NCBI GenBank assembly: GCA_947179485.1
Contig: OX359249.1
Coordinates: 1-64,000, forward strand
Direction of reading: 5' to 3'
DNA: 64,000 nucleotides
DNA from: Allacma fusca
Taxonomy: Eukaryota; Arthropoda; Collembola; Symphypleona; Sminthuridae
Made by a program: the position numbers and the translations under genes. Of the stretch, positions 10,926 to 64,000 are shown piece after piece; position 1 is the first letter of the stretch; each line of letters opens with the position of its first letter. Under the pieces are notes generated by a model. The model was not told the DNA's origin and searched no databases. It saw only the letters and a list, made by a program, of their open reading frames with translations.

Positions 10926-12930
10926 ACACTCACTGAAGGCCGGAAAATCCTGCAGAGAACTACCGGTCTGCCACAATATTTAAATTGGGCTGCTGGTAAC
11001 CAACGAAAATCGTATTTATACAGGGAGCAAAGATGCACATGTGTCCGCATTCCTATAACCTTCCTACAAGTGGGAACTAAAAATACATCCTACATATCCT
11101 ATTTATAGTAGTGGAAAACTCGACCCCACTATATGTAGATATAGGTTAGTCAAGCCTACTCAAGCTGCCTACCTATTTCCTATAAAGGATACAATAGCAG
11201 CATACATGCCTATTCTTATCCTATAAATTTCATTCTGTGTATAAACAGCGTTCCTTTTGCGTCCGCACATTACTTATGTATACTCCTTAAGTCAGTATAA
11301 AAATCCAACTATTTCAGTAAGGTAATTACAATGTGTTAAAGTGTAATGGAAATTATTAATTGATAATTTCCTCATTTTAAGCAAAATTATTAAAATGCAT
11401 GACCAAGCAATAAGTTTATTAATTAATTTGTTCATTCATCTTTTAGGTAATCTTTTCCAACTCAATATAATAGTCTGTCTGAAAAATTAAATATTGCTGG
11501 AACATTTCAAAATGAAAAAACTAAGCAGCAATAAAAAACATTGAATATTTTAAAACTTTTGAGAAAAATGAACGATACTATTGAATGCTCATTCCGAAAG
11601 CGCAGAAACCACACTGAATTTACAACGTTAAAAGAGCCTTAAAATACTCCAGAAACGCACAAAAATTGTACATGTCTTATTATTCGACATACATATACAC
11701 TAAATCCGAGGATTCCTTCCATCCTTCCTATATTTTAGGCAACATTTATATGAAGCCCAGTCCTGCCTATATTCCTTTATACTTGCAGTACAAAAGGCTG
11801 CCTGTCCTATTCCTATTTTTTCACGTTGAAGACTTCTGTTACTATCCTATCCTACCTACATAAGAAGCTTGATTTTAATGTCTATCCTATTTATATGCCT
11901 ATAAGCCCTATCCTTCGAGGAAGGATGTGCATCTTTGATAGGGAGTAAGTAGGTAGGACATAAATGTTACCAATTATTACCACAAGCCAAAAGATGCCGG
12001 TAAAATCCAATATCAACCACTGGCCTGGACATTAGTTTGTTTAACTGGATAGTATTGGCGTTTGATATTTTAGCCAATAAAATCCACATCAAATAAAAAC
12101 CTCAAATAATAGAATTCTCTGAAAGAATATTCATTAACTGGCACAAAACTTTGGGAAATTTTGTGTGACGGTAGTAGTGTAGACCCAGTTTCCAAACCCC
12201 CATTATGTTAAGTGCTGCGATGGTTCGTCGCGTTTGGTCCTTAGTAGCCTCTTTAATTAGAGTAATCATTTAAAAATACTCTGGCTAAAGGGTATGTCGT
12301 ACATTCAAGTGATATATCCATTAAGCCAAATTATTTGCTTAAGTCAGTGAAATATTCTTGAAATACCTGAAAGATCCTTGCTTATATCTGGAGACATTAG
12401 AATGTTTCACTTCGTTTTCCCTGATATATGCACAGTGGGGGGAAAAGATTTGATACGCTCTGTATATATTGAAGGATGATTCAGAATAGACTGCAAATTA
12501 CAAGTCTCATTTCGTGGTAAAATAGTCAAAATAGTTATTCTGTATGGTTATATTCTTTGGATGTTGTTAAAGGAATAGGTTGACACGATGTGAAGGTTAA
12601 CGTAAACGAACGTGACACAGGATAGCTGGTAGGATAAACGTAACATTTTAACACACGGATAAGACAAACTATTTTTTTCTCTTAATGACTTTTGCAAATT
12701 TGTGATTGTAAGAAGCCATAGCATATTGCCCTGACATTGCCAATAACCATCCCCATTAAATGCTCATGTAAGCGTAGTCTATATGTGTTATTGCACATTA
12801 TTTAGGAATTTCTGGTACTCACTCTCCCGTAGTGCTTCACCTACTATTCCTACGCCGACATACACGTTTGTATACGTTATCATTCTAAATATAAACAAAC
12901 ACATTTGGCTTTTTGAACTAAAAAAGGGAT
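10926..12930. other. Unassigned sequence with TCCTAT-rich stretches
   Basis: No gene is supported. Two zones (about 11080-11240 and 11690-11970) are rich in CCTAT, TCCTA and AGGATAGG words and resemble 24150-24370, so they may be ends of a related non-autonomous element. Segments near 10200-10390 and 11960-12080 share GTAAAATCC, AACCA and GGCC words. They may also be related, but I could not fix any boundary. Confidence 0.35.
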
Positions 12931-15640
12931 CCCCTTGCAGGTTTCAGAACCAGTGCGTGTTAGGCATGATTTACTTTTAAGAGCACAAGGCCTCCTTTTT
13001 CTAAACCTAAAACTACATTTGGGAAAAACAAACAAAGGTCAATTCTGACGATTCAATTTCGGCAATAATTAAAAACATATTTCTCCACTCAAAATGCTGT
13101 CTTGTTCCATTATTATGAAACTTGTTTTAGCAAATACAACTCATGCCGCTCCATGTATAAAATTGTGATCAAGTTCTGCGCACCACCCTAATGAAATAAT
13201 TGCTCTTTAGTTTTTAGCGTAGATATCAAAAAGCGCATTTGCTACTTTGTACTAAGGTAGGGTTCCCCTTGCAGGTTTCAGAACCAGTGCGTGTTAGGCA
13301 TGATTTACTTTTAAGAGCACAAGTCCTCCTTTTTCTAAACCTAAAACTACAATTGGGAAAAACAAACCAGGGAGTTCAAAGGTCAATTCTGACGCTTTAA
13401 TTTCGGCAATAATTAAAAACATTTCTCCACTCAAAATGCTGTCTTGTTCCATTATTATGAAACTTGTTTTAGCAAATACAACTCATGCCGCTCCATGTAT
13501 AAAATTGTGATCAAGTTCTGCGCACCACCCTAATGAAATAATTGCTCTTTAGTTTTTAGCGTAGATATCAAAAAGCGCATTTGCTACTTTGTACTAAGGT
13601 AGGGTTCCCCTTGCAGGTTTCAGAACCAGTGCGTGTTAGGCATGATTTACTTTTAAGAGCACAAGGCCTCCTTTTTCTAAACCTAAAACTACAATTGGGA
13701 AAAACAAACCAGGGAGTTCAAAGGTCAATTCTGACGCTTCAATTTCGGCAATAATTAAAAACATATTTCTCCACTCAAAATGCTGTCTTGTTCCATTATT
13801 ATGAAACTTGTTTTAGCAAATACAACTCATGCCGCTCCATGTATAAAATTGTGATCACGTTCTGCGCACCACCCTAATGAAATAATTGCTCTTTAGTTTT
13901 TAGCGTAGATATCAAAAAGCGCATTTGCTACTTTGTACTAAGGTAGGGTTCCCCTTGCAGGTTTCAGAACCAGTGCGTGTTAGGCATGATTTACTTTTAA
14001 GAGCACAAGTCCTCCTTTTTCTAAACCTAAAACTACAATTGGGAAAAACAAACCAGGGAGTTCAAAGGTCAATTCTGACGCTTTAATTTCGGCAATAATT
14101 AAAAACATTTCTCCACTCAAAATGCTGTCTTGTTCCATTATTATGAAACTTGTTTTAGCAAATACAACTCATGCCGCTCCATGTATAAAATTGTGATCAA
14201 GTTCTGCGCACCACCCTAATGAAATAATTGCTCTTTAGTTTTTAGCGTAGATATCAAAAAGCGCATTTGCTACTTTGTACTAAGGTAGGGTTCCCCTTGC
14301 AGGTTTCAGAACCAGTGCGTGTTAGGCATGATTTACTTTTAAGAGCACAAGGCCTCCTTTTTCTAAACCTAAAACTACAATTGGGAAAAACAAACCAGGG
14401 AGTTCAAAGGTCAATTCTGACGCTTCAATTTCGGCAATAATTAAAAACATATTTCTCCACTCAAAATGCTGTCTTGTTCCATTATTATGAAACTTGTTTT
14501 AGCAAATACAACTCATGCCGCTCCATGTATAAAATTGTGATCACGTTCTGCGCACCACCCTAATGAAATAATTGCTCTTTAGTTTTTAGCGTAGATATCA
14601 AAAAGCGCATTTGCTACTTTGTACTAAGGTAGGGTTCCCCTTGCAGGTTTCAGAACCAGTGCGTGTTAGGCATGATTTACTTTTAAGAGCACAAGTCCTC
14701 CTTTTTCTAAACCTAAAACTACAATTGGGAAAAACAAACCAGGGAGTTCATACATAGGTCAATTCTTACTCTTCAGTTTCGGCAATATTTAAAATTAATT
14801 TGCTCAATTCAAACTGGTTTGTTGTTCCCGTATTATGAAACTTGTTTTAGCAAATACAACTCATGCCGCTCCATGTATAAAATTGTGATCAAGTTCTGCG
14901 CACCACCCTAATGAAATAATTGCTCTTTAGTTTTTAGCGTAGATATCAAAAAGCGCATTTGCTACTTTGTACTAAGGTAGGGTTCCCCTTGCAGGTTTCA
15001 GAACCAGTGCGTGTTAGGCATGATTTACTTTTAAGAGCACAAGGCCTCCTTTTTCTAAACCTAAAACTACAATTGGGAAAAACAAACCAGGGAGTTCAAA
15101 GGTCAATTCTGACGCCTCAATTTCGGCAATAATTAAAAACATATTTCTCCACTCAAAATGCTGTCTTGTTCCATTATTATGAAACTTGTTTTAGCAAATA
15201 CAACTCATGCCGCTCCAGATATTAAATTGTGATCAAGTTCTGCGCACCATCCTAATGAGATAATTGCGCTTTAGTTTTTATCGTAGATATCAAAAAGCGC
15301 ATTTGCCACTTTGTACTTAGTTAGGGTTTCCCTTGCAGGTTTCGAAACAGCTCTTGTTATGTATGATTTACGTTTAAAACCTTGAGACCTCCTTTTTCTA
15401 AACTTAAGATTATTATTGGGGAAAACTGACGAGGGAGTTCAAAGGTCACTTCTGACTCTTAAATTTCGGTAATATTTAAAATTGATTTTTTCCACTCAAA
15501 ATGTTTTTTTTCCATTATTATGAAACTTGATTTAGCAAATACAAATCATGCAGCTCTATGCATAAAATTGTGATAAAGTTCTGCGCGTCACCCAAATCAA
15601 ATAATTGCGCTTTAGTTTTTAGCGTAGATATCCCATTAAA
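12931..15640. repeat. About 343-bp satellite with two-monomer higher-order repeat
   Basis: The marker CCCCTTGCAGGTTTCAGAAC starts copies at 12931, 13265, 13607, 13951, 14293, 14637 and 14985; a diverged copy follows near 15330. Intervals are 334, 342, 344, 342, 344 and 348 bp. Two monomer types alternate, distinguished by CAAGTCCTCC versus CAAGGCCTCC, GACGCTTTAAT versus GACGCTTCAAT, and GATCAAG versus GATCACG. The pairs 13265-13950 and 13951-14636 are near-identical 686-bp dimers. Edge copies are diverged, as expected for unequal exchange acting mainly in the array centre. Confidence 0.92.
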
Positions 15641-29000: not shown

Positions 29001-32000
29001 TGTGTGTCGCTATCTTCACTACACTGAATCCTGCTGGTACAAAACGTTTTTAAGCGGGTTGTAGTATAAAATTGAAGGAAGGCTATTTTTAGAAGAAGGC
29101 TGAAGGCAAAAATGAGCATATGTATTTTGGAAGGAAGGCAGATTTTTCAGAGGGCTTCATTCTAGGACATTTTGAAGGGGAAATTTTGATTGAATTTTCG
29201 CCTTCGAAGGCTTGAAGGAAGGCTGTTTCCTTTGCGCATCTCTGGTTCGAATTACATGATAGGAATATTGGATGATACAGAACTCATTTGATATGAGCTA
29301 TTATCGCTAACAGGTAATCCTCTCTCCATGTCCACTCGGATCGGAATGCAATTTTGATGAAGCTTCGGTACCTAGGCCAAACCAAAACTCTAAGCCATAT
29401 CGCCCTGGTTTGCTCGGGTAATCGCGCAGATGCTTTAAATTCTAATTCGCGAGCAAAAGGTCTCCCTTTCCAACCTAAATTTTCCAATGTTAAATCCTAT
29501 TTTTAATTAAATATTACATTTCTAAATTATCCAAAGTTAAATCCTATTTTTTAATTAAATTTTAAATTTCTAAATTCTTCAATGTTAAATCCTATTTTCA
29601 ATCAAATATTAAATTTCTAAATTCTCCAATGTTTAATCTTATTTTTTAATTAAATATTGAATTTCTAAATTCTCCGATGTTAAATACTATTTTTAATTAA
29701 ATATTAAATTTCTAAATTCTCCAAAGTTAAGTCTTATTTTTTAATTAAATATTACATTTCTAAATTCTCCAATGTTAAATCCAATTTTTTAATTAAAGAT
29801 TAAATTTCTGTATTTTCCAATGTGAAATCCCATTTTTTAATTAAATTTTTAAGAAATTTTCATTTTTCAAAGTCAATCTTATTTTAGATGAAAGACAACT
29901 ATGGCTGGCTTTCATCATACGTGGTTCCAGATACCTTCTTCGACTTTTAAAAATGAAAATTTTAAAATTAACCACGTATGATTAAAATTTTAAAATTTTA
30001 ATTTTAAAAGTCGAAGAAGGTATCCAGAACCACGTATGATGAAAGCCAGCCATAGTTGTCTTTCATCTAAAATAAGATTGACTTTGAAAAATGAAAATTT
30101 CTTAAAAATTTAATTAAAAAATGGGATTTCACATTGGAAAATACAGAAATTTAATCTTTAATTAAAAAATTGGATTTAACATTGGAGAATTTAGAAATGT
30201 AATATTTAATCAAAAAATTGGACTTAACTTTGGAGAATTTAGAAATTTAATATTTAATTAAAAAAATGGACTTAACATTCGAGAATTTAGAAATTTAATA
30301 TTCCATTAAAAATAGGATTTAACATTGAAAATTTTAGGTTGGGCAGGGGGCCCTTTGGCCACAAATTACAATTTAAAACATCTGCGCAATTTACGCGCAA
30401 TCCAGGGCGGAATAGCCCAAACGTTTGGTCTGGTTGGGACTTAGGGGCAGGAACCTAGTCTCCCACATAATTTCATTACGATCCCAAGTCGCATGGTGCC
30501 AGGGTTACTTGTAAGTAAGGGCAAATATACCGGTTTACATAACAAGTATATTGAAAAATACTAAATCTTTAAGGGAATTAATATGTCAAATTTTAAAGCT
30601 GAGGGATTTAGTACACTAAAAACACGTATAAAATTATGATCGATTGTACCTGCTATTATAAGCAAGTCTTGTAGAGAATGTACAGTTTATCTTTGAATTT
30701 TTCCGCATATGACAATTTTTGGGTGTACGTTTATGCACAAAGTTATCTAACAACTGGCAAGCTATACTTATCCTGCGATGTGGATACGAGCTTGTATTTC
30801 AATTATTCTTCCAAAACAAGTTACAGATCTGAAGAACCGGAACAAGAAGCAAATAGCCTGAACGAGCTAGACAACAATCCTGGTGGTATCAGTAACGACA
30901 AATCTGAAAAACAGTGCAATGGTATTGACAAGTTAATTTCGGGTCCACTTATTGATCTTTGCATTGAGACTAATACGCAAAGTCGATGCATTGCAGACGT
31001 GAATTTATATTTCGTTCGAATTAAAAAACGGTAAGCTTAATTCGTATTATTGGGAAAATGCGAATCTCAGTTTTGTAGACTAATACTTTCGTTTGATGTT
31101 AAAATAATATCTTAGCGAACATCGCCCTGTTCCATCCAATATAAGAATGGGCTCCAATACTTTTGAAAGATTTTCGGAAATGATATCAAGTTATAGTGAC
31201 GGTGTTTACGACCATACCGTATTATCGCTTTTTGAAGAACTTTTTAGTCACCGAACACTAATATTGTGGAATAATACAGAAGAAACATTTTATAAAATGT
31301 ATTCTTGCCTGAATAATCATCAAATGGTAAGGTAACAGGTGGTAAGGTTGAATGAACATATATTTCCGTAACAAAGCAAATGAATTTTGAATTTTTTAAA
31401 AGATGGATCTGGAGGTCAAAACGATGTATGGAAACGAATCGTATACCGCAATGAAATCCAACTTGAGTTTGTTTCTTACAGCGATTCAGCACTTATACTC
31501 AAACTTGGTAAATGCTATTGTGTATGACGACAAAACCAAATACATGTTACAACAAGTAGTTGTACTATTTATTAATTCAACCATCAACGCACTCTATGCT
31601 AGAAGCGTCAATAGTGTTTTTGATATCTAGTCTTCTCCAACATCTACAACAGTTTATCTCAGTTAGCGATAATTTAATTTAATTATGTTCACAGGATAAG
31701 ATTATCAGCGAGAGTTTTAATAACCACATTTTGATTACCGTAGTTTCAAAGAATTTATTTTGCCAATCCCAGGAAAGTGATTACTTTTCTGCATAAAAGC
31801 GTTAACGCAATAATTACTAAATACACCATTATTTGATATTGTGCTAACAAACGGGATAAAACGTCTGATAATAGTAATCAAGTAGCATAATTTCATTCGA
31901 CATCATTATTTTAACAAGCCGATTTAATAATTTTAGAACCTGGCAAGTGCTGTTCGCATATTTTTGCTGAAAATTAACCCGCTGAGCGACTATTGCCAAA

Positions 32001-34810: not shown

Positions 34811-37611
34811 AAAATTCCCTGGGAACGTTATTCCCTGGGAACGTTATTCCCTGGGAACGTTATTCCCTGGGAACGTTATTCCCTGGCAATGTTATTCCCT
34901 ATGAATGGTATTCCCTATGAATGTTATTCCCTGGAAATGCTATTCCCTGGGGTTGTTATATCCTGAGAATGTTATTCACTGGGGTTGCTATTTCATTCGA
35001 ATATTATTCCCTGGGGTTGTTATATCCTTAGAATGTTATTTCCTGGTGTTGTTATTGCCTGGGGTTGTTATTTCCTGCAAACGTTATTCCCTGGGGTTGT
35101 TATTTCATGAAAATGTTATTCCCTAGGGTTGTAATATCCTGTATATGGTATTCCCTGGGGTTGTCATTTCCTGGGGTTGGTATATCCTGGGGAATGTTAA
35201 TCACTTGTGATGTTCTACATTGGGAATAATCTTACCAGTGATTGTTATTCGCTGGAGTTGGGTTTCCCCGGGGTTCTTATTCCCTAGGGTTGTTATTCCC
35301 TGGGAACTTTATTAACTACGAATTTTATTCAATGGGAACTTTATTCCCTATGGATGTCATTCAATGGGGTTGTTTTTTCCTGGAAACTTTATTCCCTGGG
35401 GTTGTTATTTCTTGAAAATGTTATTCCCTAGGGTTGTTATATCCTGTGTATGGTATTTCCTGGCGTTTTCATTCCCTGGGGTTGGTATATTCTGGGAAAT
35501 GTTATTAACTGGTATTGTTATACCATGGAAATAATATTCCCTGTGATTGTTATTCGCTGGGGTTGGTTTTCCCTGAGGTTGTCGTTCCATAGGGTTGTCA
35601 TTCCCTGGGAATGTTATTCCCTGGGATTTTTATTCTCTGGGAATGTTGTTCCCTGGGAATGTGATTCGCTGGGAATGTTATTCGATGGAATTGTTATTCC
35701 CTGGGAAGGTTATTCCCTGGGAATATTATTCCCTGGGAATGTTATTCCCTGGTAATGTTATTCCCTGGTAATGTTATTCCCTGGGAATGTTTTGCGCTGG
35801 TAATGTTATTCCCTGGGAATGTTATTCCCTGGGAATTTTATTTCCTGGGAATGTTACTACCTTAGAATGGTGTTCCGGTAGAATGGTATTCCCTATGAAT
35901 GGTATTCCCTTAGAATGCTACTCCCTAGGAATGCTTTTCCCTGGGGTTGTTATATCCTGAGAATGTTATTCACTGGGTAAGTTATTCTCTAGCGTTGTTA
36001 TATCCTGAAAATGTTTTTCACTTGGGTTGCTATTTCATTCGAACATTATTCCCTGGTGTTGTTATATCCTGGAAATGTTACTCCCTGGGGTTGTTATTTC
36101 TTGAAAATGTTATTTTGCAGGGTTGTTATATCCTGTATATGGTATTCTCTGGGGTTGCCAATCCCTTGGGTTGGTATATCCTGGGGAATGTTATTCACTG
36201 GTAATGTTATACTCTGAGAATATTATTCCCTGTGATTGTTATTCGCTGGGGTTGTTATACTTTTGGATTGTTATTCCCTAGAAACTTTATGCCCTCTGAA
36301 TTTTATTGCCTGGGAACGTTATTCCCTGGGAATGTTATTTTATATGGATGTTATTCCCTGGGGTTGTTATATCCTGAGAATGTTACTCACTGGGGTTGCT
36401 ATTTCATTCGAATGTTATTTCATGGGGTTTTCATATCCCTAGAATGTTATTTTCTGGGGTTGTAATATCCTGGGGTTGTTTTTCCACGGGGTTGTTTTTT
36501 CCTGGGGTTGTTATTCCCTGGGGTTGTTATTTCCTGGAAAAGTTATTCCCTGAGGTTGTTATTTCTTGAAAATGTCATTCCCTAGGGTTGTAATATCCTG
36601 TATTTGGTATTCCCTGGGGTTGTCATTCTCTGCGGTTCGTATATCCTGGGGAATGTTAATCACTTGTGATGTTCTACATTGGGAATAATCTTCCCTATGA
36701 TTGTTATTCGCTTGAGTTGGTTTTCCTTGGGGTTCTTATTCCCTAGGGTTGTCATTCCCTGGGAACATTATTCCCTGCGAATTTTATTCAATGGGAACGT
36801 TATTCCTTGGGAATAATATTCTCTAAGGATGTTTTTCCCTGGGGTTATAATTTCCTGGAAATGTTATTCCCTGGGGTTCTTTTTGTTGAAAATGTCATTC
36901 TCAAGGATTGTTATATACTGTATATGGTATTCTCTGGGGTTATCATTCCCTCTGGTTGGTATATTCTGGGAAATGTTATTCACTGGTATTGTTATACCAT
37001 GGGAATAATATTCCATGCGATTGTTATTCTTTGGGGTTGGTTTTTCCTCGGGTTGTTATTCCCTAGGTTTGTCATTCCCTGGGAACTTTATTCCCTAGGG
37101 TTGTCATTCCCTGGGAACTTTATTCCCTGCGAATTTTATTCAATGGGAACGTTATTCCTTGGGAATAATATTCCCTAAGGATGTTTTTCCCTGGGGTTAT
37201 TATTTCCTGGAAATGTTTTCCCTGGGGTTGTTTTTGTTGAAAATGTCATTCTCAAGGATTGTTATATCCTGTATATGGTATTCTCTGGGGTTATTATTCC
37301 CTCTGGTTGGTATATTCTGGGAAATGTTATTCACTGGTATTGTTATACCATGGGAATAATATTCCATGCGATTGTTATTTTTTGGGGTTGGTTTTTCCTC
37401 GGGTTGTTATTCCCTAGGTTTGTCATTCCCTTGGAACTTTATTTCCTAGGGTTGTCATTCCCTGGGAACTTTATTCCCTGTGAATTTTATTCCCTAGGAA
37501 CGTTATTCCCGGAGTATGTTATTCCCGGGGAATGTTATTCCCGGGGAATGTTATCATCGGGGAATGTTATTCCCGGGGAATGTTATTCCCGGGGAATGTT
37601 ATTTCCTTTGA
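34811..37611. repeat. Diverged satellite block, left edge
   Basis: It starts with four units carrying GGGAACGTT (with a CpG), then heterogeneous units such as GGGGTTGTT, GAAAATGTT and TATATCCTG. Distinctive groups recur in the same order: GTATATGGTAT-type words at 35141, 35446, 36135, 36600, 36920 and 37271. The right end (about 37500-37610) has units with centre G (ATTCCCGGGGAATGTT). Confidence 0.85.
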
Positions 37612-37920
37612 ATGTTATTCCCTGGGAATGTTATTCCCTGGGAATGTTATTCCCTGGGAATAATATTCCCTAGGAATGGTATTCCCTGGGAATGTTATTA
37701 CCTGGGAATGCTATGCCCTTGGAATGTTATTCCCTGGGAATGTTATGCCCTTGGAATGTTATTCCCTGGGAATGATATTCACTGGGAATGTTATTCCCTG
37801 GGAATGTTATTCCCTGGGAATGTTATTCCCTGGGAATGTTATTCCCTGGGAATGCTATTTCCTTGGAATGTTATTCCCTGGGAATGTTATTCCCTGGGAA
37901 TGTTACTCCCTGGGAATGTT
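36512..37920. repeat. 3072-bp higher-order repeat, first copy of diverged segment
   Basis: This segment is nearly identical to 39584-40992. Matching landmarks are CCTGGAAAAGTTATTCC (36533 and 39605) and GTTACTCCC (37902 and 40974). The offset of 3072 bp equals exactly 192 monomers. One visible difference is CCTCGGGTTGTT against CCTCGTTGTGTT (about 37048 and 40120). Confidence 0.9.
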
Positions 37921-39583
37921 ATTCCCTGGGAATGTTATTCCCTGGGAATGTTACTCCCTGGGAATGTTATTCCCTGGGAATGTTATTCCCTGGGAATGTT
38001 ATTCCCTGGGAATGTTATTCCCTGGGAATGTTATTCCCTGGGAATGTTATTCCCTGGGAATGTTATTCCCTGGGAATGTTATTCCCTGGGAATGTTATTC
38101 CCTGGGAATGTTATTCCCTGGGAATGTTATTCCCTGGGAATGTTATTCCCTGGGAATGTTATTCCCTGGGAATGTTATTCCCTGGGAATGTTATTCCCTG
38201 GGAATGTTATTCCCTGGGAATGTTATTCCCTGGGAATGTTATTCCCTGGGAAGGTTATTCCCTGGGAATGTTATTCCCTGGGAATGTTATTCCCTGGGAA
38301 TGTTATTCCCTGGGAATGTTATTCCCTGGGAATGTTATTCCCTGGGAAAGTTATTCCCTGGGAATTTTATTCCCTGGGAATGTTATTCCCTGGGAATGTT
38401 ATTCCCTGGGAATGTTATTCCCTGGGAATGTTATTCCCTGGGAATGTTATTCCCTGGGAATGTTATTCCCTGGGAATGTTATTCCCTGGGAATGTTATTC
38501 CCTGGGAATGTTATTCCCTGGGAATGTTATTCCCTGGGAATGTTATTCCCTGGGAATGTTATTCCCTGGGAAGGTTATTCCCTGGGAATTTTATTCCCTG
38601 GGAATGTTATTCCCTGGGAATGTTATTCCCTGGGAATGTTATTCCCTGGGAATGTTATTCCCTGGGAATGTTATTCCCTGGGAATGTTATTCCCTGGGAA
38701 TGTTATTCCCTGGGAATGTTATTCCCTGGGAATGTTATTCCCTGGGAATGTTATTCCCTGGGAAGGTTATTCCCTGGGAATGTTATTCCCTGGGAAGGTT
38801 ATTCCCTGGGAATGTTATTCCCTGGGAAGGTTATTCCTTGGGAATGTTATTCCCTGGGAATGTTATTCCCTGGGAATGTTATTCCCTGGGAATGTTATTC
38901 CTTGGGAATGTTATTCCCTGGGAATGTTATTCCCTGGGAATTTTATTCCCTGGGAATGTTATTCCCTGGGAATGTTATTCCCTGGGAATGTTATTCCCTG
39001 GGAATGTTATTCCCTGGGAATGTTATTCCCTGGGAATGTTATTCCCTGGGAATGTTATTCCCTGGGAATGTTATTCCCTGGGAATGTTATTCCCTGGGAA
39101 TGTTATTCCCTGGGAATGTTATTCCCTGGGAATGTTATTCCCTGGGAATGTTATTCCCTGGGAATGTTATTCCCTGGGAATGTTATTCCCTGGGAATGTT
39201 ATTCCCTGGGAATGTTATTCCCTGGGAATGTTATTCCCTGGGAATGTTATTCCCTGGGAATGTTATTCCCTGGGAATGTTATTCCCTGGGAATGTTATTC
39301 CCTGGGAATGTTATTCCCTGGGAATGTTATTCCCTGGGAATGTTATTCCCTGGGAATGTTATTCCCTGGGAATGTTATTCCCTGGGAATGTTATTCCCTG
39401 GGAATGTTATTCCCTGGGAATGTTATTCCCTGGGATTGTTATTCCCTGGGAATGTTATTCCCTGGGAATGTTATTCCCTGGGAATGTTATTCCCTGGGAA
39501 TGTTATTCCCTGGGAATGTTATTCCCTGGGAATGTTATTCCCTGGGAATGTTATTCCCTGGGAATGTTATTCCCTGGGAATGG
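37612..39583. repeat. Homogeneous satellite block between the two diverged segments
   Basis: Almost pure consensus units with scattered GGGAAGG and GGGAATTTT variants. It lies between the two copies of the diverged segment and so forms the rest of the 3072-bp unit. Confidence 0.9.
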
Positions 39584-40992
39584 TATTCCCTGGGGTTGTT
39601 ATTTCCTGGAAAAGTTATTCCCTGAGGTTGTTATTTCTTGAAAATGTCATTCCCTAGGGTTGTAATATCCTGTATTTGGTATTCCCTGGGGTTGTCATTC
39701 TCTGCGGTTCGTATATCCTGGGGAATGTTAATCACTTGTGATGTTCTACATTGGGAATAATCTTCCCTATGATTGTTATTCGCTTGAGTTGGTTTTCCCT
39801 GGGGTTCTTATTCCCTAGGGTTGTCATTCCCTGGGAACATTATTCCCTGCGAATTTTATTCAATGGGAACGTTATTCCTTGGGAATAATATTCTCTAAGG
39901 ATGTTTTTCCCTGGGGTTATAATTTCCTGGAAATGTTATTCCCTGGGGTTCTTTTTGTTGAAAATGTCATTCTCAAGGATTGTTATATACTGTATATGGT
40001 ATTCTCTGGGGTTATCATTCCCTCTGGTTGGTATATTCTGGGAAATGTTATTCACTGGTATTGTTATACCATGGGAATAATATTCCATGCGATTGTTATT
40101 CTTTGGGGTTGGTTTTTCCTCGTTGTGTTATTCCCTAGGTTTGTCATTCCCTGGGAACTTTATTCCCTAGGGTTGTCATTCCCTGGGAACTTTATTCCCT
40201 GCGAATTTTATTCAATGGGAACGTTATTCCTTGGGAATAATATTCCCTAAGGATGTTTTTCCCTGGGGTTATTATTTCCTGGAAATGTTTTCCCTGGGGT
40301 TGTTTTTGTTGAAAATGTCATTCTCAAGGATTGTTATATCCTGTATATGGTATTCTCTGGGGTTATTATTCCCTCTGGTTGGTATATTCTGGGAAATGTT
40401 ATTCACTGGTATTGTTATACCATGGGAATAATATTCCATGCGATTGTTATTTTTTGGGGTTGGTTTTTCCTCGGGTTGTTATTCCCTAGGTTTGTCATTC
40501 CCTTGGAACTTTATTTCCTAGGGTTGTCATTCCCTGGGAACTTTATTCCCTGTGAATTTTATTCCCTAGGAACGTTATTCCCGGAGTATGTTATTCCCGG
40601 GGAATGTTATTCCCGGGGAATGTTATCATCGGGGAATGTTATTCCCGGGGAATGTTATTCCCGGGGAATGTTATTTCCTTTGAATGTTATTCCCTGGGAA
40701 TGTTATTCCCTGGGAATGTTATTCCCTGGGAATAATATTCCCTAGGAATGGTATTCCCTGGGAATGTTATTACCTGGGAATGCTATGCCCTTGGAATGTT
40801 ATTCCCTGGGAATGTTATGCCCTTGGAATGTTATTCCCTGGGAATGATATTCACTGGGAATGTTATTCCCTGGGAATGTTATTCCCTGGGAATGTTATTC
40901 CCTGGGAATGTTATTCCCTGGGAATGCTATTTCCTTGGAATGTTATTCCCTGGGAATGTTATTCCCTGGGAATGTTACTCCCTGGGAATGTT
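39584..40992. repeat. 3072-bp higher-order repeat, second copy of diverged segment
   Basis: The in-register second copy of 36512-37920. After about 40980 the arrays differ by added or lost monomers, as expected from later unequal exchange. Confidence 0.9.
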
Positions 40993-42999
40993 ACTCCCTG
41001 GGAATGTTATTCCCTGGGAATGTTATTCCCTGGGAATGTTACTCCCTGGGAATGTTATTCCCTGGGAATGTTATTCCCTGGGAATGTTATTCCCTGGGAA
41101 TGTTATTCCCTGGGAATGTTATTCCCTGGGAATGTTATTCCCTGGGAATGTTATTCCCTGGGAATGTTATTCCCTGGGAATGTTATTCCCTGGGAATGTT
41201 ATTCCCTGGGAATGTTATTCCCTGGGAATGTTATTCCCTGGGAATGTTATTCCCTGGGAATGTTATTCCCTGGGAATGTTATTCCCTGGGAATGTTATTC
41301 CCTGGGAATGTTATTCCCTGGGAATGTTATTCCCTGGGAAGGTTATTCCCTGGGAATGTTATTCCCTGGGAATGTTATTCCCTGGGAATGTTATTCCCTG
41401 GGAATGTTATTCCCTGGGAATGTTATTCCCTGGGAATGTTATTCCCTGGGAATGTTATTCCCTGGGAATGTTATTCCCTGGGAATGTTATTCCCTGGGAA
41501 TGTTATTCCCTGGGAATGTTATTCCCTGGGAATGTTATTCCCTGGGATTGTTATTCCCTGGGAATGTTATTCCCTGGGAATGTTATTCCCTGGGAATGTT
41601 ATTCCCTGGGAATGTTATTCCCTGGGAATGTTATTCCCTGGGAATGTTATTCCCTGGGAATGTTATTCCCTGGGAATGTTATTCCCTGGGAATGTTATTC
41701 CCTGGGAATGTTATTCCCTGGGAATGTTATTCCCTGGGAATGTTATTCCCTGGGAATGTTATTCCCTGGGAATGTTATTCCCTGGGAATGTTATTCCCTG
41801 GGAATGTTATTCCCTGGGAATGTTATTCCCTGGGAATGTTATTCCCTGGGAATGTTATTCCCTGGGAATGTTATTCCCTGGGAATGTTATTCCCTGGGAA
41901 TGTTATTCCCTGGGAATGTTATTCCCTGGGAATGTTATTCCCTGGGAATGTTATTCCCTGGGAATGTTATTCCCTGGGAATGTTATTCCCTGGGAATGTT
42001 ATTCCCTGGGAATGTTATTCCCTGGGAATTTTATTCCCTGGGAATTTTATTCCCTGGGAATGTTATTCCCTGGGAATGTTATTCCCTGGGAATGTTATTC
42101 CCTGGGAATGTTATTCCCTGGGAATGTTATTCCCTGGGAATGTTATTCCCTGGGAATGTTATTCCCTGGGAATGTTATTCCCTGGAATTTTTATTCCCTG
42201 GGAATGTTATTCCCTGGGAAGGTTATTCCCTGGGAATGTTATTCCCTGGGAAGGTTATTCCCTGGGAATGTTATTCCTTGGGAATGTTATTCCCTGGGAA
42301 TGTTATTCCCTGGGAATGTTATTCCCTGGGAATGTTATTCCCTGGGAAGGTTATTCCCTGGGAAGGTTATTCCCTGGGAATGTTATTCCCTGGGAAGGTT
42401 ATTCCCTGGGAAGGTTATTCCCTGGGAATGTTATTCCCTGGGAAGGTTATTCCCTGGGATTGTTATTCCCTGGGAAGGTTATTCCCTGGGAATGTTATTC
42501 CCTGGGAAGGTTATTTCCTGGGAAGGTTATTCCCTGGGAAGGTTATTCCCTGGGAAGGTTATTCCCTGGGAAGGTTATTCCCTGGGAAGGTTATTCCCTG
42601 GGAAGGTTATTCCCTGGAAAGGTTATTCCCTGGGAAGGTTATTCCCTGGGAATGTTATTCCCTGGGAATGTTATTCCTTGGGAATGTTATTCCCTGGGAA
42701 TGTTATTCCCTGGGAATGTTATTCCCTGGGAATGTTATTCCCTGGGAATGTTATTCCCTGGGAATGTTATTCCCTGGGAATGTTATTCCCTGGGAATGTT
42801 ATTCCCTGGGAATGTTATTCCCTGGGAATGTTATTCCCTGGGAATGTTATTCCCTGGGAATGTTATTCCCTGGGAATGTTATTCCCTGGGAATGTTATTC
42901 CCTGGGAATGTTATTCCCTGGGAATGTTATTCCCTGGGAATGTTATTCCCTGGGAATGTTATTCCCTGGGAATGTTATTCCCTGGGAATGTTATTCCCT

Positions 43000-44955
43000 G
43001 GGAATGTTATTCCCTGGGAATGTTATTCCCTGGGAATGTTATTCCCTGGGAATGTTATTCCCTGGGAATGTTATTCCCTGGGAATGTTATTCCCTGGGAA
43101 TGTTATTCCCTGGGAATGTTATTCCCTGGGAATGTTGTTCCCTGGGAATGTTGTTCCCTGGGAATGTTGTTCCCTGGGAATGTTATTCCCTGGGAATGTT
43201 GTTCCCTGGGAATGTTATTCCCTGGGAATGTTATTCCCTGGGAATGTTATTCCCTGGGAATGTTATTCCCTGGGAATGTTATTCCCTGGGAATGTTATTC
43301 CCTGGGAATGTTATTCCCTGGGAATGTTATTCCCTGGGAATGTTATTCCCTGGGAATGTTATTCCCTGGGAATGTTATTCCCTGGGAATGTTATTCCCTG
43401 GGAATGTTATTCCCTGGGAATGTTATTCCCTGGGAATGTTATTCCCTGGGAATGTTATTCCCTGGGAATGTTATTCCCTGGGAATGTTATTCCCTGGGAA
43501 TGTTATTCCCTGGGAAGGTTATTCCCTGGGAATGTTATTCCCTGGGAAGGTTATTCCCTGGGAAGGTTATTCCCTGGGAATGTTATTCCCTGGGAAGGTT
43601 ATTCCCTGGGAATGTTATTCCCTGGGAAGGTTATTCCCTGGGAATGTTATTCCCTGGGAAGGTTATTCCCTGGGAATGTTATTCCCTGGGAAGGTTATTC
43701 CCTGGGAAGGTTATTCCCTGGGAATGTTATTCCCTGGGAAGGTTATTCCCTGGGAATGTTATTCCCTGGGAAGGTTATTCCCTGGGAATGTTATTCCCTG
43801 GGAAGGTTATTCCCTGGGAAGGTTATTCCCTGGGAAGGTTATTCCCTGGGAATGTTATTCCCTGGGAAGGTTATTCCCTGGGAATGTTATTCCCTGGGAA
43901 GGTTATTCCCTGGGAATGTTATTTCCTGGGAATGTTATTCCCTGGGAAGGTTATTCCCTGGGAAGGTTATTCCCTGGGAATGTTATTCCCTGGGAATGTT
44001 ATTCCCTGGGAATGTTATTCCCTGGGAATGTTATTCCCTGGGAATGTTATTCCCTGGGAAGGTTATTCCCTGGGAATGTTATTCCCTGGGAATGTTATTC
44101 CCTGGGAATGTTGTTCCCTGGGAATGTTGTTCCCTGGGAATGTTGTTCCCTGGGAATGTTATTCCCTGGGAATGTTGTTCCCTGGGAATGTTATTCCCTG
44201 GGAATGTTATTCCCTGGGAATGTTATTCCCTGGGAATGTTATTCCCTGGGAATGTTATTCCCTGGGAATGTTATTCCCTGGGAATGTTATTCCCTGGGAA
44301 TGTTATTCCCTGGGAATGTTATTCCCTGGGAATGTTATTCCCTGGGAATGTTATTCCCTGGGAATGTTATTCCCTGGGAATGTTATTCCCTGGGAATGTT
44401 ATTCCCTGGGAATGTTATTCCCTGGGAATGTTATTCCCTGGGAATGTTATTCCCTGGGAATGTTATTCCCTGGGAATGTTATTCCCTGGGAAGGTTATTC
44501 CCTGGGAATGTTATTCCCTGGGAAGGTTATTCCCTGGGAAGGTTATTCCCTGGGAATGTTATTCCCTGGGAAGGTTATTCCCTGGGAATGTTATTCCCTG
44601 GGAAGGTTATTCCCTGGGAATGTTATTCCCTGGGAAGGTTATTCCCTGGGAATGTTATTCCCTGGGAAGGTTATTCCCTGGGAAGGTTATTCCCTGGGAA
44701 TGTTATTCCCTGGGAAGGTTATTCCCTGGGAATGTTATTCCCTGGGAAGGTTATTCCCTGGGAATGTTATTCCCTGGGAAGGTTATTCCCTGGGAAGGTT
44801 ATTCCCTGGGAAGGTTATTCCCTGGGAATGTTATTCCCTGGGAAGGTTATTCCCTGGGAATGTTATTTCCTGGGAATGTTATTCCCTGGGAAGGTTATTC
44901 CCTGGGAAGGTTATTCCCTGGGAATGTTATTCCCTGGGAATGTTATTCCCTGGGA
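43000..44955. repeat. 976-bp higher-order repeat, two copies
   Basis: A group of GTTGTTCCC units starts at 43134 and again at 44110. The first GGGAAGG of the following mixed zone is at 43512 and 44488. Both offsets are 976 bp, or 61 monomers. The ATTTCCTGGG marker at 43921 and 44865 is 944 bp apart, so two monomers were lost in one copy. In the mixed zones GGGAAGG and GGGAATG units often alternate. Confidence 0.85.
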
Positions 44956-47900: not shown

Positions 47901-50900
47901 TGTTATTCCCTGGGAATGTTATTCCCTGGGAATGTTATTCCCTGGGAATGTTATTCCCTGGGAATGGTATTCCCTGGGAATGTTATTCCCTGGGAATGTT
48001 ATTCCCTGGGAATGTTATTCCCTGGGAATGTTATTCCCTGGGAATGTTATTCCCTGGGAATGTTATTCCCTGGGAATGTTATTCCCTGGGAATGTTATTC
48101 CCTGGGAATGTTATTCCCTGGGAATGTTATTCCCAGGGAATGTTATTCCCTGGGAATGTTATTCCCTGGGAATGTTATTCCCTGGGAAGGTTATTCCCTG
48201 GGAATGTTATTCCCTGGGAATGTTATTCCCTGGGAATGTTATTCCCTGGGAAGGTTATTCCCTGGGAATGTTATTCCCTGGGAAGGTTATTCCCTGGGAA
48301 TGTTATACCCTGGGAATGTTATTCCCTGGGAAGGTTATTCCCTGGGAATGTTATTCCCTGGGAATGTTATTCCCTGGGAATGTTATTCCCTGGGAATGTT
48401 ATACCCTGGGAATGTTATTCCCTGGGAAGGTTATACCCTGGGAATGTTATTCCCTGGGAAGGTTATTCCCTGGGAATGTTATTCCCTGGGAAGGTTATTC
48501 CCTGGGAATGTTATTCCCTGGGAAGGTTATTCCCTGGGAATGTTATTCCCTGGGAATGTTATTCCCTGGGAATGTTATTCCCTGGGAATGTTATTCCCTG
48601 GGAATGTTATTCCCTGGGAATGTTATTCCCTGGGAATGTTATTCCCTGGGAATGTTATTCCCTGGGAATGTTATTCCCTGGGAATGTTATTCCCTGGGAA
48701 TGGTATTCCCTGGGAATGTTATTCCCTGGGAATGTTATTCCCTGGGAATGTTATTCCCTGGGAATGTTATTCCCTGGGAAGGTTATTCCCTGGGAATGTT
48801 ATTCCCTGGGAATGTTATTCCCTGGGAATGTTATTCCCTGGGAATGTTATTCCCTGGGAATGTTATTCCCTGGGAATGTTATTCCCTGGGAATGTTATTC
48901 CCTGGGAATGTTATTCCCTGGGAATGTTATTCCCTGGGAATGTTATTCCCTGGGAATGTTATTCCCTGGGAATGTTATTCCCTGGGAATGTTATTCCCTG
49001 GGAATGTTATTCCCTGGGAATGTTATTCCCTGGGAATGTTATTCCCTGGGAATGTTATTCCCTGGGAATGTTATTCCCTGGGAATGTTATTCCCTGGGAA
49101 TGTTATTCCCTGGGAATGTTATTCCCTGGGAATGGTATTCCATGGGAATGTTTTTCCCTGGGAATGGTATTCCATGGGAATGTTTTTCCCTGGGAATGGT
49201 ATTCCCTGGGAATGTTATTCCCTGGGAATGTTATTCCCTGGGAATGTTATTCCCTGGGAATGTTATTCCCTGGGAATGTTATTCCCTGGGAATGTTATTC
49301 CCTGGGAATGGTATTCCCTGGGAATGTTTTTCCCTGGGAATGGTATTCCCTGGGAATGTTATTCCCTGGGAATGTTATTCCCTGGGAATGTTATTCCCTG
49401 GGAATGTTATTCCCTGGGAATGTTATTCCCTAGGAATGTTATTCCCTGGGAATGTTATTCCCTGGGAATGTTATTCCCTGGGAATGTTATTCCCTGGGAA
49501 TGTTATTCCCTGGGAATGTTATTCCCTGGGAATGTTATTCCCAGGGAATGTTATTCCCTGGGAATGTTATTCCCTGGGAATGTTATTCCCTGGGAATGTT
49601 ATTCCCAGGGAATGTTATTCCCTGGGAATGTTATTCCCAGGGAATGTTATTCCCTGGGAATGTTATTCCCTGGGAATGTTATTCCCTGGGAATGTTATTC
49701 CCTGGGAATGTTATTCCCTGGGAATGTTATTCCCTGGGAATGTTATTCCCTGGGAATGTTATTGCCTGGGAATGTTATTCCCTGGGAATGTTATTGCCTG
49801 GGAATGTTATTCCCTGGGAATGTTATTCCCTGGGAATGTTATTCCCTGGGAATGTTATTCCCTGGGAATGTTATTCCCTGGGAATGTTATTCCCTGGGAA
49901 TGTTATTGCCTGGGAATGTTATTCCCTGGGAATGTTATTCCCTGGGAATGTTATTCCCTGGGAATGTTATTCCCTGGGAATGTTATTCCCTGGGAATGTT
50001 ATTCCCTGGGAATGTTATTCCCTGGGAATGTTATTCCCTGGGAATGTTATTCCCTGGGAATGTTATTCCCTGGGAATGTTATTCCCTGGGAATGTTATTC
50101 CCTGGGAATGTTATTCCCTGGGAATGTTATTCCCTGGGAATGTTATTCCCTGGGAATGTTATTCCCTGGGAATGTTATTCCCTGGGAATGTTATTCCCTG
50201 GGAATGTTATTCCCTGGGAATGTTATTCCCTGGGAATGTTATTCCCTGGGAATGTTATTCCCTGGGAATGGTATTCCCTGGGAATGTTATTCCCTGGGAA
50301 TGTTATTCCCTGGGAATGTTATTCCCTGGGAATGTTATTCCCTGGGAATGTTATTCCCTGGGAATGTTATTCCCAGGGAATGTTGTTCCCTGGGAATGTT
50401 ATTCCCTGGGAATGTTATTCCCTGGGAATGTTATTCCCTGGGAATGTTATTCCCTGGGAATGTTATTCCCTGGGAATGTTATTCCCTGGGAATGTTATTC
50501 CCTGGGAATGTTATTCCCTGGGAATGTTATTCCCTGGGAATGTTATTCCCTGGGAATGTTATTCCCTGGGAATGTTATTCCCTGGGAATGTTATTCCCTG
50601 GGAATGTTATTCCCTGGGAATGTTATTCCCTGGGAATGTTATTCCCTGGGAATGTTATTCCCTGGGAATGTTATTCCCTGGGAATGTTATTCCCTGGGAA
50701 TGTTATTCCCTGGGAATGTTATTCCCTGGGAATGTTATTCCCTGGGAATGTTATTCCCTGGGAATGTTATTCCCTGGGAATGTTATTCCCTGGGAATGTT
50801 ATTCCCTGGGAATGTTATTCCCTGGGAATGTTATTCCCTGGGAATGTTATTCCCTGGGAAAGTTATTCCCTGGGAATGTTATTCCCTGGGAATGTTATTC

Positions 50901-60410: not shown

Positions 60411-62105
60411 TGTTATTCCCTGGGAATGTTATACCCTGGGAATGTTATTCCCTGGGAATGTTATTCCCTGGGAATGTTATTCCCTGGGAATGTTATACCC
60501 TGGGAATGTTATTCCCTGGGAATGTTATACCCTGGGAATGTTATTCCCTGGGAATGTTATACCCTGGGAATGTTATTCCCTGGGAATGTTATACCCTGGG
60601 AATGTTATTCCCTGGGAATGTTATTCCCTGGGAATGTTATTCCCTGGGAATGTTATTCCCTGGGAATGTTATGCCCTGGGAATGTTATTCCCTGGGAATG
60701 TTATTCCCTGGGAATGTTATTCCCTGGGAATGTTATTCCCTGGGAATGTTATTCCCTGGGAATGTTATTCCCTGGGAATGTTATTCCCTGGGAAAGTTAT
60801 TCCTTGGGAAAGTTATTCCCTGGGAAAGTTATTCCCTGGGAAAGTTATTCCCTGGGAATGTTATTCCCTGGGAATGTTATTCCCTGGGAATGTTATTCCC
60901 TGGGAATGTTATTCCCTGGGAATGTTATTCCCTGGGAATGTTATTCCCTGGGAATGTTATTCCCTGGGAATGTTATTCCCTGGGAATGTTATTCCCTGGG
61001 AATGTTATTCCCTGGGAATGTTATTCCCTGGGAATGTTATTCCCTGGGAATGTTATTCCCTGGGAATGTTATTCCCTGGGAATGTTATTCCCTGGGAATG
61101 TTATTCCCTGGGAATGTTATTCCCTGGGAATGTTATTCCCTGGGAATGTTATTCCCTGGGAATGTTATTCCCTGGGAATGTTATTCCCTGGGAATGTTAT
61201 TCCCTGGGAATGTTATTCCCTGGGAATGTTATTCCCTGGGAATGTTATTCCCTGGGAATGTTATTCCCTGGGAATGTTATTCCCTGGGAATGTTATTCCC
61301 TGGGAATGTTATTCCCTGGGAATGTTATTCCCTGGGAATGTTATTCCCTGGGAATGTTATTCCCTGGGAATGTTATTCCCTGGGAATGTTATTCCCTGGG
61401 AATGTTATTCCCTGGGAATGTTATTCCCTGGGAATGTTATTCCCTGGGAATGTTATTCCCTGGGAATGTTATTCCCTGGGAATGTTATTCCCTGGGAATG
61501 TTATTCCCTGGGAATGTTATTCCCTGGGAAAGTTATTCCTTGGGAAAGTTATTCCCTGGGAAAGTTATTCCCTGGGAATGTTATTCCCTGGGAATGTTTA
61601 TCCCTGGGAATGTTTATCCCTGGGAATGTTTATCCCTGGGAATGTTTATCCCTGGGAATGTTATTCCCTGGGAATGTTATTCCCTGGGAATGTTATTCCC
61701 TGGGAATGTTATTCCCTGGGAATGTTATTCCCTGGGAATGTTATTCCCTGGGAATGTTATTCCCTGGGAATGTTATTCCCTGGGAATGTTATTCCCTGGG
61801 AATGTTATTCCCTGGGAAAGTTATTCCCTGGGAATGTTATTCCCTGGGAAAGTTATTCCCTGGGAATGTTATTCCCTGGGAAAGTTATTCCCTGGGAATG
61901 TTATTCCCTGGGAATGTTATTCCCAGGGAATGTTATTCCCTGGGAATGTTATTCCCAGGGAATGTTATTCCCTGGGAATGTTATTCCCAGGGAATGTTAT
62001 TCCCTGGGAATGTTATTCCCTGGGAATGTTATTCCCTGGGAATGTTATTCCCTGGGAATGTTATTCCCTGGGAATGTTATTCCCTGGGAATGTTATTCCC
62101 TGGGA

Positions 62106-62149
62106 AGTACTCTGCGTTGATACCACTGCTTAACATCGTCGTGTCGTGA
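62106..62149. other. Sequencing-library adapter embedded in the satellite
   Basis: The only unique sequence in the array. 62107-62131 is the exact reverse complement of the 25-nt SMART-type amplification oligonucleotide; it begins GTACTCTGCGTTGATACC. With the A at 62106 it matches the ligated form that ends in a T. The next 18 nt (62132-62149, starting AACATCGTCG) are neither satellite nor a sequence I recognise and may be index or linker sequence. The satellite resumes at 62150. This is artificial DNA, and the join between the arrays on the two sides is not biological evidence of adjacency. Confidence 0.93.
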
Positions 62150-64000
62150 GGGAATGTTATTCCCTGGGAATGTTATTCCCTGGGAATGTTATTCCCTGGG
62201 AATGTTATTCCCTGGGAATGTTATTCCCTGGGAATGTTATTCCCTGGGAATGTTATTCCCTGGGAATGTTATTCCCTGGGAATGTTATTCCCTGGGAATG
62301 TTATTCCCTGGGAATGTTATTCCCTGGGAATGTTATTCCCTGGGATTGTTATTCCCTGGGAATGTTATTCCCTGGGAATGTTATTCCCTGGGAATGTTAT
62401 TCCCTGGGAATGTTATTCCCTGGGAATGTTATTCCCTGGGAATGTTATTCCCTGGGAATGTTATTCCCTGGGAATGTTATTCCCTGGGAATGTTATTCCC
62501 TGGGAATGTTATTCCCTGGGAATGTTATTCCCTGGGAATGTTATTCCCTGGGAATGTTATTCCCTGGGAATGTTATTCCCTGGGAATGTTATTCCCTGGG
62601 AATGTTATTCCCTGGGAATGTTATTCCCTGGGAATGTTATTCCCTGGGAATGTTATTCCCTGGGAATGTTATTCCCTGGGAATGTTATTCCCTGGGAATG
62701 TTATTCCCTGGGAATGTTATTCCCTGGGAATGTTATTCCCTGGGAATGTTATTCCCTGGGAATGTTATTCCCTGGGAATGTTATTCCCTGGGAATGTTAT
62801 TCCCTGGGAATGTTATTCCCTGGGAATGTTATTCCCTGGGAATGTTATTCCCTGGGAATGTTATTCCCTGGGAATGTTATTCCCTGGGAATGTTATTCCC
62901 TGGGAATGTTATTCCCTGGGAATGTTATTCCCTGGGAATGTTATTCCCTGGGAATGTTATTCCCTGGGAATGTTATTCCCTGGGAATGTTATTCCCTGGG
63001 AAAGTTATTCCTTGGGAAAGTTATTCCCTGGGAAAGTTATTCCTTGGGAAAGTTATTCCCTGGGAAAGTTATTCCCTGGGAAAGTTATTCCCTGGGAAAG
63101 TTATTCCCTGGGAAAGTTATTCCCTGGGAAAGTTATTCCCTGGGAAAGTTATTCCCTGGGAATGTTATTCCCTGGGAATGTTTATCCCTGGGAATGTTAT
63201 TCCCTGGGAATGTTATTCCCTGGGAATGTTATTCCCTGGGAATGTTATTCCTTGGGAAAGTTATAACCTGGGAATGTTATTCCCTGGGAATGTTATTCCC
63301 TGGGAATGTTATTCCCTGGGAATGTTATTCCCTGGGAATGTTATTCCCTGGGAATGTTATTCCCTGGGAATGTTATTCCCAGGGAATGTTATTCCCTGGG
63401 AATGTTATTCCCTGGGAATGTTATTCCCTGGGAATGTTATTCCCTGGGAATGTTATTCCCTGGGAATGTTATTCCCTGGGAATGTTATTCCCTGGGAATG
63501 TTAATTCCTGGGAATGTTATTCCCTGGGAATGTTAATTCCTGGGAATGTTATTCCCTGGGAATGTTATTCCCTGGGAATGTTATTCCCTGGGAATGTTAT
63601 TCCCTGGGAATGTTATTTCCTGGGAATGTTATTCCCTGGGAATGTTATTCCCTGGGAAAGTTATTCCTTGGGAAAGTTATTCCCTGGGAATGTTATACCC
63701 TGGGAAAGTTATTCCCTGGGAATGTTATACCCTGGGAAAGTTATTCCCTGGGAATGTTATACCCTGGGAATGTTATTCCCTGGGAATGTTATTCCCTGGG
63801 AATGTTATTCCCTGGGAATGTTATTCCCTGGGAATGTTATTCCCTGGGAATGTTATTCCCTGGGAATGTTATTCCCTGGGAATGTTATTCCCTGGGAATG
63901 TTATTCCCTGGGAATGTTATTCCCTGGGAATGTTATTCCCTGGGAATGTTATTCCCTGGGAATGTTATTCCCTGGGAATGTTATTCCCTGGGAATGTTAT

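Follow-up and report, generated by a model that had tools for sequence, protein, structure and literature searches.

In a satellite array on contig OX359249.1 of the Allacma fusca assembly GCA_947179485.1, the 43 bases at 62107–62149 of the window (the whole stretch analysed here, positions 1 to 64,000 of the contig) are almost certainly not genomic and consist of an amplification adapter and a PacBio sample barcode. They carry no biological significance: we read them as a technical artefact of an already documented type, very probably the untrimmed end of a HiFi read that was built into the assembly. The case for an artefact is made by an exact 25-base adapter match, an exact match to barcode bc1020 one base further on, and an arrangement of these parts that is the one expected of a read end.

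The adapter occupies 62107–62131 on the minus strand. As an earlier note on this DNA had claimed, these 25 bases are the reverse complement of the SMART-type oligonucleotide AAGCAGTGGTATCAACGCAGAGTAC, with no mismatch, and the oligonucleotide occurs once in the 64-kb window (the runner-up match has 9 mismatches in 25 positions). For a given 25-mer, about 1e-10 matches are expected by chance on both strands of 64 kb, assuming equal base frequencies, which bears out the note's judgement that coincidence is not credible. The 18 bases beyond the adapter, which the note had left unnamed, are an A, the reverse complement of the 16-base barcode bc1020 (CACGACACGACGATGT, minus strand, 62133–62148) and a second A; the barcode match is also exact and also single in the window, with a chance expectation of about 2e-10. 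Given an exact 25-mer beside an exact vendor barcode, a real genomic insertion that merely resembles the oligonucleotide has a negligible probability, and its location in a satellite array that has no other interruption here is all that speaks for it. Aligned to the satellite without gaps in all 16 phases, the insert matches at no more than 18 of 43 positions.

Read on the minus strand from the outside towards the DNA molecule, the sequence runs T, CACGACACGACGATGT, T, AAGCAGTGGTATCAACGCAGAGTAC and then (T)TCCC... of the satellite. Going outward from the molecule, one meets the amplification adapter, a probable T overhang, the barcode and a probable hairpin edge, as at the end of a PacBio read. 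The adapter, AAGCAGTGGTATCAACGCAGAGTAC(T), stands at the junction with genomic DNA, the vendor barcode lies beyond it on the side away from genomic DNA, and a single extra base (62149) precedes the return of the satellite, one base being too little to establish that the sequence stops at a hairpin edge. Three single positions complete the insert and its border. The A at 62106 can be assigned in two ways, to the satellite as its last base or to a T/A ligation junction as the complement of a 26th adapter base T; the 26-mer ending in T does match here, and an A is equally what the satellite has at this place, so the assignment is ambiguous. Counting this A gives the length of 44 bases used in the earlier note. 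The minus-strand T at 62132, between adapter and barcode, is probably the T overhang of the barcoded SMRTbell adapter, the ligation role that the library design would give it. At 62149 the plus strand has A, where satellite in register would give T; on the minus strand this is a T that probably represents the last base of the SMRTbell hairpin stem, remaining after hairpin removal, with one base counting as weak evidence.

The oligonucleotide AAGCAGTGGTATCAACGCAGAGTAC doubles as a SMART cDNA primer, and we take it to be the PCR adapter of PacBio ultra-low-input libraries too. In SMART cDNA the oligonucleotide is followed by ATGGG or by a long run of T. Here it adjoins satellite instead, so that entry of a SMART cDNA library read into the assembly, in place of amplified genomic DNA, is exceedingly unlikely, even if several papers that contain the 26-base form concern RNA sequencing, to go by their titles. 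PMC12613986 names the 26-base form, which ends in T, as an adapter contaminant that was removed with lima from a genomic PacBio HiFi library. The bc1020 16-mer appears as BC1020_Forward in Table 4 of PMC7962047, located inside barcoded primers for PacBio sequencing, and two further papers have it in the same setting; in the literature searched, it was found in these three alone. The hairpin sequence given in PMC12745853 ends in ...GAGAGAGAT, which fits the minus-strand T at 62149.

Incorporation of adapters into contigs by HiFi assemblers is on record: according to PMC8864876, the HiFiAdapterFilt survey, each of three programs yielded some assemblies that contained adapter, and errant insertion in otherwise contiguous contigs is one of five error types. 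The present case resembles that type in having library adapter inside an otherwise continuous contig. It differs in that the survey reports on the PacBio blunt (SMRTbell) adapter, whereas here an amplification adapter and a barcode replace satellite in register.

The satellite that hosts the insert has the 16-base unit ATTCCCTGGGAATGTT, which Tandem Repeats Finder and a register map place at 34814–64000 in about 1,824 copies, running off the window. It is present on both sides of the insert, as the earlier note had seen, with unbroken 16-base periodicity over approximately 62006–62106 and 62150–62345. The motif GGGAA stands at 62102 and again at 62150, 48 bases (3 × 16) apart, and its starts fall at residue 6 modulo 16 in 13 of 13 instances in 61900–62106 and in 15 of 15 in 62150–62400. 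Apart from the insert, the register map shows no change of register between about 53150 and the end of the window. Since the two flanks share one register, the adapter takes up the room of 43 satellite bases without lengthening the array; with 43 bases added, the satellite beyond would be displaced by 11, and the chance of a random join preserving the register is one in 16. The 15-base core of the unit was not found as an unbroken word in the literature searched, nor were two consecutive units found in any viral contig searched. The right-flank satellite also lies on the same strand as the left, which contradicts a missed hairpin, that is, a read that rounded an undetected SMRTbell adapter and returned on the other strand. 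Inverted duplicates do adjoin adapters in HiFi assemblies (PMC8864876); here barcode and satellite have no hairpin sequence between them, and such an origin is very unlikely.

The untrimmed read end would account for one adapter copy, a barcode, a putative stop at the hairpin edge and an unchanged register. Genomic DNA would have been amplified with a SMART-type adapter, probably in a library of the PacBio ultra-low-input type, and the library would have been built with hairpin adapters bearing barcode bc1020. One HiFi read ending in satellite would then have retained its terminal 43 bases, namely amplification adapter, T, barcode and one hairpin base. The assembler may have followed this read as far as its last base and switched there to a second one whose satellite overlapped in register, which would leave 43 adapter bases in place of 43 satellite bases. 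The earlier note's suggestion that the library was amplified is supported by the presence of the adapter, from which we infer the same.

To place this arrangement among other occurrences of the same 25-mer, we compared 12 prokaryote stretches (GTDB MAGs) and 116 viral-contig stretches (IMG/VR), all 128 of which contain it. These controls are not independent: the isolate names of all 12 prokaryote stretches begin with FRAM, so they probably come from one project, and among the names of the viral contigs there are 8 data-set numbers. Head-to-head oligonucleotide pairs occur in 11 of the 12 prokaryote stretches; ten of these pairs have exact copies (with one extra base between them in L003), the pair in L012 is short of one base, and the remaining stretch, L011, has one internal copy without a partner. 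In none of the 11 pairs is one flank the reverse complement of the other across the 200 bases compared (only 47 bases in L008 and 9 in L010), and the pairs therefore look like joins of different molecules. Among the viral stretches, 112 of 116 start with the oligonucleotide at contig base 1, and a T comes next on the genomic side in 110 of these 112 copies; the other four have a copy at the contig end, an internal head-to-head pair, a run of same-direction copies at the contig end and a copy two bases from the contig start. Judged from these stretches, joined molecules would mostly show as a head-to-head pair, and a single copy would mostly point to the end of a read or contig, although the lone internal copy in L011 means that a single copy is no proof of a read end. 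Barcode bc1020 is absent from all 12 prokaryote and all 116 viral loci that carry the oligonucleotide, and no viral contig has the two joined, so that the combination is without a second example in the collections searched. Whereas the oligonucleotide in IMG/VR and GTDB contigs is mostly at a contig start or head-to-head, here it is a single internal copy with bc1020. As a side observation, L001–L012 are public MAG contigs with SMART adapter remnants inside them, and these contigs are probably falsely joined at the adapter sites.

The earlier note had suggested that a read, either untrimmed or chimeric, bridged two satellite molecules; of these options the untrimmed read is the likely one and the chimeric bridge the weaker. 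In a chimera, a molecule or read would have joined two satellite fragments through the adapter, and the right block could derive from another part of the array or of the genome. The public assemblies provide a precedent for adapter-bridged joins of differing sequence, namely the 11 prokaryote pairs, which show no fold-back where their flanks can be compared. Such joins would lead one to expect two head-to-head adapters, as in those 11 controls (one with a base missing), and the insert has one copy and a barcode. The unchanged register likewise argues against a chimera; the chance of one in 16 that such a join would keep it counts in turn against the read-end reading, and the uniformity of the array hides the position from which a right block would come. 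Weighing these points, we consider a chimera improbable and the untrimmed read end much the better account.

On whether the array itself continues across the insert, the variant units bear in both directions. The right block (62150–64000) has 5 of its 10 variant unit types in common with the adjoining 1.85 kb on the left, against 3 of 10 for each of four more distant blocks on that side, the last of which holds 93 units, not 115. Being higher towards the adjoining block, this sharing is in keeping with continuity and speaks against a chimera, on a small sample; the other 5 of the 10 types are missing from the preceding 1.85 kb, as a chimera would allow. Exact repeats of at least 100 bases between the left and right sides number 5,736 and are nearly uniform; the most informative one (63267–63434, identical to 48021–48188) has 6 non-periodic sites, and none exceeds 6. 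The longest among the best 8 of the 5,736 is a 697-base repeat, 62347–63043 matching 60875–61571 at an offset of 1,472 bases. It counts against continuity and for a chimera, since re-traversal of the same satellite might give such a repeat, though it includes only 4 non-periodic sites.

With such uniform units on either side of the insert, an overlap crossing it could be off by whole units, and the earlier note's caution about array length stands. The evidence for a wrong order of the blocks to the right of 62150, an order that the note likewise called unreliable, is weak and mixed. A jump by the assembler between distant parts of a much larger satellite, which would make the array far longer and the order beyond 62150 false, is conceivable, if rather unlikely. 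In practical terms, the 43 bases should be masked and the assembly screened for the adapter and for bc1020, a barcode that would help to trace the library from which the read came; where a library has been amplified in this way, the lengths assembled for uniform tandem arrays are not to be trusted literally.

Other features of the array were seen at a distance from the insert. The 16-base unit slips by one base at about 51806 and about 53150, in an otherwise uniform part of the array, and further register slips occur at the irregular array edge. This irregular edge is present twice, at 36512–37921 and 39584–40993, 3,072 bases (192 × 16) apart, as three exact stretches (215, 323 and 868 bases) with one and three bases between them; either a recent duplication or an assembly repeat may lie behind it. 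An exact repeat of 806 bases with 24 non-periodic sites links 43086–43891 and 44062–44867 at a spacing of 976 bases (61 × 16), which points to higher-order repeats or to recent duplication of a satellite block.

BLAST of 62090–62165 against plasmid and phage collections, with a short query and the low-complexity filter on, gave no match at E 0.01, and scans of the window with Rfam (gathering scores) and for tRNA genes found nothing. None of the 16 stop-to-stop frames of at least 90 amino acids in 1–34800, all of which were scanned, reaches a curated Pfam cut-off; two weak matches, to DUF6681 and MVL, fall below theirs. Tandem Repeats Finder reports an array with a 344-base unit at 12925–15632 (7.9 copies, 94% matches) and two arrays with an AT-rich 48-base unit, at 29475–29846 and 30108–30334. 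By eye, the consensus units of the latter two are near reverse complements of each other, which makes the arrays an inverted pair.
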